A stretch of 11,373 nucleotides of DNA from Bacteroidota bacterium (GTDB lineage: Bacteria; Bacteroidota; Ignavibacteria; Ignavibacteriales; Ignavibacteriaceae). A model generated the notes under the pieces. It was given only the letters and a program-made list of their open reading frames with translations. It did no database searches and had not been told where the DNA came from. The stretch spans positions 1 to 11,373 of the forward strand of contig JADFGB010000015.1 in assembly GCA_022567875.1 (NCBI GenBank), read 5' to 3'. Of this stretch, positions 5,301 to 11,373 are shown piece after piece (positions within the stretch are counted from its first letter, which is position 1; the number at the start of each line of letters is the position of its first letter). The position numbers were made by a program, and so were the translations under genes.

Positions 5301-6321
5301 TAATAATATATTCTATAATTTTTTTATCCTTTTCAAATGGTGTAATGCTGTTCAGCCCCAATTTATCAATTGCTAAATCAACTAATTCATTTTCTGTTGC
5401 TGATTTGTTTCCGGAATAATATTTTCCGGCTAATATCATTGCATCCAAAGGAACCAAACCTACAATTTCACTACCCATAACTTCAACGGAAAGTCTTTCA
5501 GCTTCTCTTTTAACTTCTTCAAAAGCAATATGCATAGGAGTAACAGTGTAGTTTGTCAAGTTCATTGAGACCTGAGATATTTTATGTTTTTCAAGTGCAA
5601 CACCCATTCCTTTTACATTTTTCAACCTTCCAGGAATACGAATAGTTTTACCATCTACTTTTATAATTTTCCCTTCTTCATCTCTTTTAGGTTTACCCGA
5701 TTCTCTTAAAACCACTGCTATTTCTTTCGAATATTTTGTATCGGTTGATTTTATATTAACATTGTAAGCAATTAAAAAAAATCTTGCGCCTGTAACTAAT
5801 GCACCAAGCTTAGGATTAAAAACAGCTTCACCAAAATCAGGGGCCCACTGTTCATCTTTTAATTTCTCTTCAAGTCCTTCGTATTCACCTTTACGAATAT
5901 TTGAAAGATTACGTCTCTCAGGTTTTCTTGCAGATGCTTCGTATAAATACACGGGAAGATTTAACTCTTTAGAAATACGTTTACCGAACTCTTCTGAAAT
6001 TCTAATACAATCATCCGTTGTAACGTTTTTAACCGGGATAAATGGTACCACATCTATTGCACCAAGGCGGGGGTGTTCTCCTTTTTGGTAACGCATATCA
6101 ATATTTTCTGCTGCTGCTTTACAGACATTTAATGCTCCCTCTATTATGCCGGTTTCATTTCCGGCTAAAGTTACAACAACTCTATTGTAATCAGCATCCG
6201 GTTCTAAATTCAATAATTTAACACCTTCAGTTTTATTTATTGAATCCTTTATAACATCAAAAGTTTCGTTTCTTTTTCCCTCACTAAAATTTGGAACACA
6301 TTCAATAATTTTCAAAATCAT
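5293..6321 (-). CDS. Glutamate formimidoyltransferase (FTCD N-terminal family)
   Basis: This enzyme transfers the formimino group from N-formimino-L-glutamate to tetrahydrofolate, giving glutamate and 5-formimino-THF. At 342 residues it contains both subdomains of the transferase but no cyclodeaminase part, which is encoded by the next gene. The start reads ECVPNFSEG (residues 7-15), and KGEHPRLGAIDVVPFIPV carries H83, aligning with the catalytic His82 of the mammalian enzyme. Further conserved parts are LYEASARKPERRNL, FGEAVFNPKLGALVTGAR and the QVSMNLTNYTVTPMH segment. Its ATG overlaps the stop codon of hutI in an ATGA arrangement, a strong sign of translational coupling within a histidine-utilisation operon. 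The last two codons lie in an AT-rich repeat. Assignment is secure. Confidence 0.95.
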   Translation of the reverse strand: MILKIIECVPNFSEGKRNETFDVIKDSINKTEGVKLLNLEPDADYNRVVVTLAGNETGIIEGALNVCKAAAENIDMRYQKGEHPRLGAIDVVPFIPVKNVTTDDCIRISEEFGKRISKELNLPVYLYEASARKPERRNLSNIRKGEYEGLEEKLKDEQWAPDFGEAVFNPKLGALVTGARFFLIAYNVNIKSTDTKYSKEIAVVLRESGKPKRDEEGKIIKVDGKTIRIPGRLKNVKGMGVALEKHKISQVSMNLTNYTVTPMHIAFEEVKREAERLSVEVMGSEIVGLVPLDAMILAGKYYSGNKSATENELVDLAIDKLGLNSITPFEKDKKIIEYIINN

Positions 6322-7586: not shown

Positions 7587-8069
7587 TTAGCGATAATTGT
7601 TTATTTTTTCTCTGACTATCCTAACATTACTGTAACCCAACTGCTCTAATTTTAAGTTTAAATCTTCAGCTAATGAATGTACAGTAAAATCTCCTATTTG
7701 AACATTATAAAATGGTGGGTCAAATAAAATGTAAACATGTTTCTGATTTATTTTTGATAAAACTCTGTATTTCATTCTTCTTGCTTGTTCAAGGTTATCA
7801 GTTGATAAAATTTGTACTCTAAATCCGTTTACCTTTTCAAATACATTTGAAGTATCAGTGCTATTAGAAATATCATCATTATAACCGTACCAAATATTAA
7901 GATGTGAAGGTAGTGTAGTATTTGTATTAGGTTTAACTTTTATCTTTGTTCTATAAGGAGTAATGATAAAGTCTTCTTTAATTTTTTCAGTACTTATTTT
8001 TTTATTTGTTTTTTCCCTGGTTTTATCTTCATTACTAATTTTGGCTGAAGAACTGCAAGAGATTAGCAT
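7587..8069 (-). CDS. SPOR-domain lipoprotein, N-terminus disrupted
   Basis: The C-terminal part (about residues 82-155, from GFRVQILSTDNLEQARRM to YSNVRIVRE) matches the SPOR fold, which binds peptidoglycan lacking stem peptides. In between lies a charged, low-complexity linker (about 9-60). Counted from the ATG at 8069 the protein is 160 residues and starts MLISCSSS, too short for a signal peptide. The same frame continues upstream without a stop and encodes LLTVLFLLILSFMLISC, a complete hydrophobic core and lipobox. A normal start such as MK followed by LLTV would be expected near 8110, but no ATG is there; the next upstream in-frame codon of note is a stop. The real start has therefore been lost at the host/phage junction near 8100, and the gene is a 5'-truncated lipoprotein gene. 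It heads the hut operon, probably by chance of co-transcription. Confidence 0.8.
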   Translation of the reverse strand: MLISCSSSAKISNEDKTREKTNKKISTEKIKEDFIITPYRTKIKVKPNTNTTLPSHLNIWYGYNDDISNSTDTSNVFEKVNGFRVQILSTDNLEQARRMKYRVLSKINQKHVYILFDPPFYNVQIGDFTVHSLAEDLNLKLEQLGYSNVRIVREKINNYR

Positions 8070-8094
8070 GAAAGAAAGTATTAATAAAAATAAA

Positions 8095-8112
8095 ACAGTT
8101 AGAAGAGACGAT
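8095..8112. other. Junction between AT-rich bacterial DNA and phage DNA
   Basis: Left of here the minus strand encodes the hydrophobic core of a lipoprotein signal peptide. Right of here the plus strand encodes the end of a phage-like gene that leads into tail genes. Both genes are missing their starts, head-to-head. The exact base cannot be fixed by eye; 8095-8112 is the plausible interval. No integrase, tRNA or evident duplicated att core accompanies it. Confidence 0.6.
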
Positions 8113-9613: not shown

Positions 9614-10609
9614 ATGTTTTTAACAAATAAAACAACTATAATTGCAGCTTTGGAGGGTACTTCTTACGATGTGGCAGGAGAGACTCTAACAAGTACTGAC
9701 TTTGATATTCGTATAAGAAATGACGTAACTTATACTCTTGAGATGGATGAATACAGGAGGAAATATCTCGAAGGTACTTTAGACCATGACTTATCTGTAA
9801 TAGGAAGACAGCGAGGAACTTTTACTTTTACCGTGGATATGGCTCCAAGTGCCACAGGCTCAGAAGATGTTCCACCTCCCTGGAGTAAACTATTACAAGG
9901 TTGTGGGTTTGAGGAAGAGATACATGCTACCTTTGGAGTAAGTTGGAGGCCACACTCAGATTTTACTCATATACCTCTTACTGTTCATGTAGTTGAACAA
10001 TTGGAGGGGGCTTCTGCTGACATGCTTGTGACAAGATATCAGGGTGTTATGGGTAATGTAACTTTTGTTATTGGTACTGTGGGCGAACCTGTTCAAATGA
10101 ATTTTGATTTTTCGGGTGCATTTATATCTATGGAAGATTTGGCTTTTGGTTCCCGATTAGTCCCAACTGATCTATCTACTGTTAAACCTGGAGCTATATT
10201 AGGTTCTACTGTTACTGTAAACGGTGTGGCTCAAGATATAGATACATTTGAATTTAACATGAATAATTCTATACAAGAACATATTGACCCATCTAGAGGC
10301 ACAGGTCTACGAGGATTTTATAAGGATGCTTATGAACCTCAACTAACTTTAGACCCGACTTTAAAACAAATTTCTGCTGAACCTGTATATACAGAATGGT
10401 TAGCTTGTACTCCTGGCGTTATATCTGTTATTACTGCACCTGCTCAAACAGGACCAGTATTAACTTTATCTGCTCCCGCAGCACAAAGAATTGCTTTAGA
10501 TATAGGTGACCGTAATGGGGCTAGATTAGCGGGTACAAATTTTCTTTTGACTAAAGGTGCTCCTGCTGGTAACGATGTATTTGAAATTTTACAAGGCACT
10601 AAGTCTTAA
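9614..10609 (+). CDS. Major tail protein (siphovirus tail tube subunit)
   Basis: The 331-residue, beta-rich acidic protein fits the phage tail tube family. The N-terminal half resembles the common pattern of these proteins: YRRKYLEGTLDHDLSVIGRQ (about 47-66), then GTFTFTVDMAPS, then PPPWSKLLQGCGFEEE (about 87-102), which matches the PxW..LL.ACGF element of many major tail proteins. A second beta region (about 110-200) includes a DMLVTRYQGVMGNVTFVIG turn and a GEPVQMNFDFSGAF strand pair. The C-terminal half (about 205-331) has DTFEFNMNNSIQEH and a TGLRGFYKDAYEPQLTLD stretch and may form an additional Ig-like or tube-decorating part. It is preceded by the strongest ribosome binding site here and followed by the assembly chaperone gene, the standard order. 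Confidence 0.78.
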   Translation: MFLTNKTTIIAALEGTSYDVAGETLTSTDFDIRIRNDVTYTLEMDEYRRKYLEGTLDHDLSVIGRQRGTFTFTVDMAPSATGSEDVPPPWSKLLQGCGFEEEIHATFGVSWRPHSDFTHIPLTVHVVEQLEGASADMLVTRYQGVMGNVTFVIGTVGEPVQMNFDFSGAFISMEDLAFGSRLVPTDLSTVKPGAILGSTVTVNGVAQDIDTFEFNMNNSIQEHIDPSRGTGLRGFYKDAYEPQLTLDPTLKQISAEPVYTEWLACTPGVISVITAPAQTGPVLTLSAPAAQRIALDIGDRNGARLAGTNFLLTKGAPAGNDVFEILQGTKS

Positions 10610-10641: not shown

Positions 10642-11142
10642 ATGGAAGAGACAATAATAAACAGAGTTCTCGATAATGATACTAGAAAAAAACTTATGGA
10701 AGCTGGTGCATTTGGCTTTACTAAAAATAAAGAATTCCCATATGTACCAGAGTCAGTAAGAGAAAAAGATGAAAACGACATCTATAAGCTACCCAAAGAA
10801 TATTGGCCTGTGTTTAAATTTAAAGGTAAGGATGGTGTCGAATCTGCCAATATGGAAAAAGACCTTGGATATATGCAGATGGTTAAAGAAAATGGAAAGG
10901 ACGTTCAAAATTGGATTAGCAAGTCCGGTGCATCAAGAATAAAAGTTTTAATGGATTGTGTTAAGGGCTGGAAAAATTATTATGATTCGGAAGGTAATGA
11001 AATACCTTTTAGGCATAATAATGGAATGGTTAACAAAGATTCAATAGCTAGAATACCTTCAGCATGGGCTATAGAATTTGTCAATGTTATAATTGAAAGA
11101 ACAGTCTTATCCCCAGAGGAACTGGAGGGTTTAGAATCCTAG
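10642..11142 (+). CDS. Tail assembly chaperone (gpG-like, zero-frame product)
   Basis: This 166-residue protein follows the major tail protein directly, the usual place of the tail assembly chaperone that coats the tape measure protein during tail assembly. It is charged and helical, with a conserved-looking middle (DLGYMQMVKENGKDVQNWI, about 72-90) and an acidic C-terminus LSPEELEGLES. An AAAGAAAGG ribosome binding site lies upstream (10627-10635). Its last codons contain the -1 frameshift heptamer GGGTTTA in the correct phase, three codons before the TAG (11140-11142). Most ribosomes should make this short form and a minority a longer fusion, as for lambda G and GT. There is no similarity I can quote to lambda gpG itself; the call rests on gene order and the frameshift signal. 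Confidence 0.72.
   Translation: MEETIINRVLDNDTRKKLMEAGAFGFTKNKEFPYVPESVREKDENDIYKLPKEYWPVFKFKGKDGVESANMEKDLGYMQMVKENGKDVQNWISKSGASRIKVLMDCVKGWKNYYDSEGNEIPFRHNNGMVNKDSIARIPSAWAIEFVNVIIERTVLSPEELEGLES
11127..11133 (+). promoter_or_regulatory. -1 programmed ribosomal frameshift heptamer GGGTTTA
   Basis: The heptamer is a canonical X XXY YYZ site. In the chaperone frame it is read as G GGT TTA, and after slipping back one base the tRNAs re-pair with GGG TTT. The next codon is then AGA at 11133. It lies 6 bases before the zero-frame TAG and inside the 46-base overlap (11097-11142) between the two open frames. Confidence 0.8.
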
Positions 11143-11373
11143 CGGGGTATCATTCTGGTGTCATACCCTCTGCTCCATGTAAGGTATGCCCCTATAATGA
11201 TAGTATTGGTAAACGTAGAGGATGCAAAGGTCAACCCGCACCTAGCATAGTTTTAAAAGAAGAACATGATGGAAAAGAGATATGTTATTGGAATTGTCCA
11301 AAGTTATTTATACCACAAAGTATAATACGTTGGCATAAAATATATAAGTATCATAAAGACTTTCCTGGAGCTT
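11133..11373 (+). CDS. Cys-rich frameshift extension of the tail assembly chaperone (GT-like), partial
   Basis: The -1 frame is open from 11097, just after a TGA at 11094-11096, to the end of the window. It has no ATG, GTG or TTG start codon before the Cys-rich part, so it needs the frameshift at 11127 to be translated. Entered at AGA 11133 it encodes RILAGYHSGVIPSAPCKVC, then a run with CPYNDSIGKRRGC, and later EICYWNCPKLFIPQSIIRW and KYHKDFPGA at the window edge. Five cysteines are spaced CX2C-X11-C-X19-CX3C, suggesting a zinc-binding fold. From memory, comparable Cys-rich segments (a PC..CPY start, then a CP..LITPE-like stretch and a Tyr/His-rich end) occur behind tail chaperones of other siphophages; this recollection has not been checked. 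The 3' end is outside the window. Confidence 0.7.
11144..11169 (+). promoter_or_regulatory. Hairpin downstream of the frameshift heptamer
   Basis: GGGTAT at 11145-11150 pairs perfectly with ATACCC at 11163-11168, extended outward by a G-U pair (11144 with 11169). The loop is 12 bases with limited further pairing. The stem starts about 10 bases after the slippery site, at the long end of the spacing usual for stimulatory structures, and covers sequence just after the zero-frame stop codon. Confidence 0.55.

Follow-up and report, generated by a model that had tools for sequence, protein, structure and literature searches.

A conserved GGGTTTA heptamer as a probable -1 frameshift site in a phage tail assembly chaperone gene

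The window analysed here (11,373 nucleotides) is contig C101, taken end to end, of a 408-contig, 1.85 Mb genome of a Bacteroidota bacterium (GenBank assembly GCA_022567875.1, contig JADFGB010000015.1), and phage genes are encoded on its + strand from about 8.1 kb onward. Sequence comparison indicates that positions 11127-11133 are very probably a -1 programmed ribosomal frameshift site in the tail assembly chaperone gene of a long-tailed phage. Indeed, this reading is supported by (i) conservation of the heptamer, of its phase and of both frames, (ii) a synonymous constraint on the heptamer, (iii) the gene order and (iv) a chaperone-like predicted fold. The mechanism itself is known (described in an excerpt of PMC5009743), and no claim is made that the phage family is unpublished. 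The elements concerned are the following:

10642-11142, + strand: zero-frame tail assembly chaperone gene, putative role like that of lambda gpG, 166 amino acids, ATG start (open reading frame, relatives, predicted fold)
11127-11133, + strand: slippery heptamer GGGTTTA, in phase as G_GGT_TTA, conserved in relatives
11140-11142, + strand: zero-frame stop codon TAG, read from the sequence
11133-11373, + strand: cysteine-rich -1 extension read if the predicted shift occurs, beginning with AGA at 11133 and truncated where the contig ends

Conservation of the slippery heptamer

The zero-frame gene ends in GAG GAA CTG GAG GGT TTA GAA TCC TAG, so that six nucleotides (GAATCC) separate the heptamer from the stop. 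Upstream, the open stretch of the -1 frame reaches back to 11097, which is 43 nucleotides from the first base of the stop codon and 46 counted to its last; downstream, the frame leaves the contig (end 11373) 77 codons past the stop, with no ATG, GTG or TTG ahead of its first cysteine. The original prediction had given this same arrangement of heptamer, stop and startless -1 frame, and its coordinates hold on direct reading.

By itself, a heptamer close to a stop codon would be no more than moderately improbable by chance. A second in-phase heptamer (AAAAAAA at 10686) is present in the same gene, and in-phase X_XXY_YYZ motifs (Y = A or T) occur at 18 of 2521 other positions of 16 representative genes. 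Chance is excluded for GGGTTTA because the heptamer is conserved in relatives. Scans of IMG/VR yielded 19 contigs with both frames, or 15 once near-duplicates were removed (L016, L025, L026 and L031, which count among the 19 only); these 15 and the window form the 16 representatives, and L005, whose contig ends within the zero-frame gene, was left out of the counts. GGGTTTA is found in the same phase, together with both frames, in 17 of the 19 contigs and in 14 of the 16 representatives, counting the window; the comparison of phase proposed with the original prediction thus came out in its favour. The stop follows the heptamer after 6 nucleotides in 11 of these 14 representatives and after 3 in the other three.

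The best sign of selection on the heptamer itself is a synonymous constraint on its first base. The zero-frame codon immediately preceding GGT encodes E, Q, L, A or S, and its third position takes no part in -1 frame decoding. Among 14 relatives, 12 have G at this position, against 4.04 expected from the codon usage of the + strand open reading frames of each contig (P = 2.9e-6), and in 13 of 15 sequences when the window is added (P = 8.0e-7), although relatedness of the sequences would make the true P values larger. The window was left out of the first count, having been picked for its heptamer in the original prediction, and L023 was left out of the test because the search pattern that found it fixes this base.

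The -1 frame and alternative explanations

Conservation of the -1 protein starts at the heptamer (GFRILAG). The -1 frames of the window and of relative L004 share 63% identity, and four cysteines, which may bind a metal, are kept in all 18 aligned sequences. Among 20 loci including the window, 17 have no -1 frame start codon ahead of the first cysteine, and three database proteins (P0006, P0007 and P0008) have three differing start points.

Two overlapping genes could also account for the two frames, the cysteine-rich protein being made separately, whether by reinitiation after termination or from a non-standard start codon close to the TAG. Several observations favour this alternative and weigh against frameshifting. 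Indeed, (i) possible starts precede the first cysteine in L022 (TTG), L026 (ATG) and L029 (GTG and TTG), (ii) in more distant phages, an ATG overlaps the stop of RcZahn (TAATG) and a GTG lies 8 nucleotides past the stop of RHph_I4, and (iii) L028 and L029 conserve both frames with no X_XXY_YYZ heptamer in the slip region (positions 5985-6013 of each locus; CTT TCT TTA GAA TCT TAG and GAA GGC TTA AAA TTC TAG, respectively). Such a loss of the heptamer with both frames kept, seen in 2 of the 16 representatives, had been named in advance as evidence that would overturn the prediction; because L028 and L029 are distant relatives, they limit the rule and do not refute it for the window. A separate gene is nevertheless very unlikely, given the 17 loci lacking a start codon, the onset of protein conservation at the heptamer and the constraint on the synonymous base that completes GGG.

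An assembly error or a decayed gene, in which one continuous gene has lost a base, would fit with other signs of bad joins in this genome (this contig near 8.1 kb, and contig C347), but the identical frame change at the heptamer in 17 of 19 independent contigs, with both frames conserved, in practice refutes it. Transcriptional rather than ribosomal slippage, a known alternative route to a change of frame (an excerpt of PMC5009743), is equally improbable, since the runs comprise merely three G and three T and the conserved feature is a tandem heptamer in codon phase.

The zero-frame protein and gene order

A protein search found five relatives of the zero-frame protein (96-45% identity), four of which share the C-terminal EELEGLES. 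One of the five, P0001 (96% identity), is encoded on contigs of up to 36,721 bases. The predicted fold of the zero-frame protein appears to resemble those of phage tail/tape-measure chaperones; the HK97 tail assembly chaperone (PDB 2ob9) shares 4% identity with it, with a Z score in the range where chance arrangements occur. Neither chaperone part of this phage family has a match in Pfam or a clear one in PHROGs, and because of this the second part is overlooked or wrongly placed by gene finding. The next gene upstream is:

9614-10609, + strand: probably the tail tube (major tail) protein gene, role assigned from position

Its product is 43% identical to that of an L004 gene in the same order and has no PHROGs match below 0.08; a tail tube protein is annotated at a comparable place in the phages RcTiptonus and JP1. 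Downstream, all 15 relatives have an open reading frame of 395 to 941 amino acids (three of these are cut by the stretch) that starts between -62 and +18 nucleotides from the -1 stop. In L004, the sole relative tested, it encodes a tape measure protein according to PHROGs and starts 1 nucleotide past the -1 stop, and the window contig ends before any tape measure gene position. The relatives may share the lambda-like gene order on the downstream side; the major tail protein upstream is placed by position and not by a family match. The frameshifted chaperone originally proposed is supported by the heptamer in 14 of 16 genes, the downstream long open reading frame in 15 of 15 relatives and the chaperone-like predicted fold.

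Candidate stimulatory elements

Two further elements flank the heptamer in the window:

11115-11119, + strand: Shine-Dalgarno-like GAGGA, candidate frameshift stimulator, 6 nucleotides before the heptamer
11145-11168, + strand: perfect 6-base-pair stem GGGTAT (11145-11150) / ATACCC (11163-11168), loop of 12, probably due to chance

GAGGA, a pattern noticed after the fact, precedes the slip region in 15 of the 16 representatives, all but L047, compared with 112 of 2297 control windows of the same genes, and its end lies 6 nucleotides from the slip site in 12 representatives and 9 in three. The glutamate at codon -4 is encoded by GAG in 12 of 14 cases (P = 3e-5 to 7e-5), compared with 71 of 232 glutamate codons elsewhere in the representative genes; of the 44 other Glu-acidic pairs in these genes, 16 have GAG as their first codon. 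A Shine-Dalgarno-like sequence is therefore present at a fixed upstream distance and kept beyond what protein coding requires, and this candidate element may stimulate slippage. A role of ribosome-binding-site-like sequences in -1 shifts is described in an excerpt of PMC10885494.

The stem noted in the original prediction is present, beginning 11 nucleotides past the heptamer, but is no more than expected by chance: a perfect 6-base-pair stem with a loop of 3-15 occurs in 206 of 1619 segments of 40 nucleotides in the window, and none of the 15 relatives has one within 40 nucleotides of the stop; the hairpin element of the original prediction is not supported. Furthermore, the 60 nucleotides after the heptamer of the window fold no better than shuffled sequences (z 0.00), and no consensus base pairs over 60 nucleotides emerge when 10 of the 16 sequences are aligned. 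No conserved 3' stem-loop was found after the heptamer by these tests, which covered simple stems and neither pseudoknots nor longer-range structures. The downstream regions of L028 (z -2.18), L047 (z -2.54) and the distant phage TM16 (z -1.97) fold better than most shuffles, and therefore single members may carry a downstream stimulator.

Proposed mechanism and significance

Most ribosomes would stop at TAG and yield a short chaperone. On the others, the Gly-tRNA on GGT and the Leu-tRNA on TTA would slip back by one base onto GGG TTT, and reading would resume with AGA ATC CTA to give a longer protein with a cysteine-rich C-terminal domain. By analogy with lambda gpG and gpGT, many copies of the short form could bind to the tape measure protein, and recruitment of tail tube subunits could fall to the less abundant long form. 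The occurrence and frequency of slippage, as well as this division of labour in assembly, are put forward here as presumed features of the system. A more tentative and rather doubtful proposal is that these genes form a distinct cassette class, with a four-cysteine, probably metal-binding extension, in which GAGGA and not a 3' structure would aid the G_GGT_TTA slip, and from which L028 and L029 would have lost the tandem heptamer and reach the -1 domain otherwise.

These data broaden the reach of a textbook recoding mechanism, well known from tailed phages, to include uncultured phages of a little-described family, and the conservation of GAGGA together with the two heptamer-less members offers a natural series on what drives phage -1 frameshifting.

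Contig joins

Bacterial and phage DNA are joined at about 8068-8110 of the window. Similarity to same-genus genomes around a SPOR-domain gene ends at 8095, the signal-peptide start of this gene is replaced at the join, and the phage side starts inside the end of an apparent head-tail adaptor gene (by eye). This arrangement resembles a chimeric contig more than the end of a prophage. A second contig of this genome (C347:18169-20370, locus L051:1170-3371) terminates in the C-terminal portion of a tape measure protein that shares 32-39% identity with that of L004; in this open reading frame an apparent cellular B12-binding domain (by eye) precedes the tape measure part, and cellular-looking genes adjoin. 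C347 is likely another chimeric join, perhaps involving the same phage.

Comparison with known systems and other phages

Sequence matches of the family to described chaperone families were limited to weak ones. A chaperone gene that matches the family profile (98.1) is present in G023 (L007:1453-2228, contig C1), a single-contig genome from the taxonomic family of the host. This gene has AAAAAAC directly before TAA, followed by an open -1 frame without the cysteine pattern; this locus is probably a prophage. RcTiptonus (L008), which has an in-phase AAAAAAG 81 nucleotides before the stop and none within 40 nucleotides, was not counted as support.

As in the window, an in-phase heptamer precedes the zero-frame stop in the Rhizobium phages RHph_I4, L338C and TM16, the Agrobacterium phage JP1 and the Rhodobacter phage RcZahn, and their -1 frames have C-x2-C, GC and CP cysteines. 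The tape measure gene comes next in RHph_I4, L338C, JP1 and RcZahn, and the TM16 record ends there. Their heptamers are GGGAAAC or AAAAAAC, in contrast to GGGTTTA here. In RHph_I4 and L338C, an in-phase GGGAAAC lies 3 nucleotides before the stop and a cysteine-rich -1 frame follows; these cassettes (L002:4824-5632 and L003:4824-5632) are annotated as separate hypothetical proteins, and the annotated start in L338C (5375) removes the first cysteines. The family profile recognizes the zero frame of RHph_I4 (probability 96.9) but has no significant match to its -1 domain (3.8), for which common descent is suggested by the cysteine pattern only.

AAAAAAC lies 27 nucleotides before the stop in JP1, 12 in RcZahn and 0 in TM16. 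In RcZahn (L009:3498-3522) and TM16 (L011:3501-3512), the -1 frame reads KKLRLGV-x-AIRLMP from the in-phase heptamer, upstream of both annotated starts. Clear frameshift sequences were reported as not evident in the RcZahn paper; the AAAAAAC shared with TM16 suggests that RcZahn does have them, although its TAATG could be a reinitiation site instead.

The distance from the Shine-Dalgarno-like sequence to the slip site is longer in Escherichia coli dnaX (about 10 nucleotides) than here (6 or 9). According to an excerpt of PMC5009743, dnaX also has a Shine-Dalgarno-like sequence upstream of its -1 slip site and, unlike the window, uses a 3' stem-loop as well. The family differs from lambda G/GT in its GGGTTTA heptamer, its cysteine-rich -1 domain and the upstream GAGGA. 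The lambda slippery heptamer is GGGAAAG, which likewise begins with GGG. As in lambda G/GT (described in an excerpt of PMC5009743), the chaperone gene precedes the tape measure gene and a -1 shift near its end would add a second domain.
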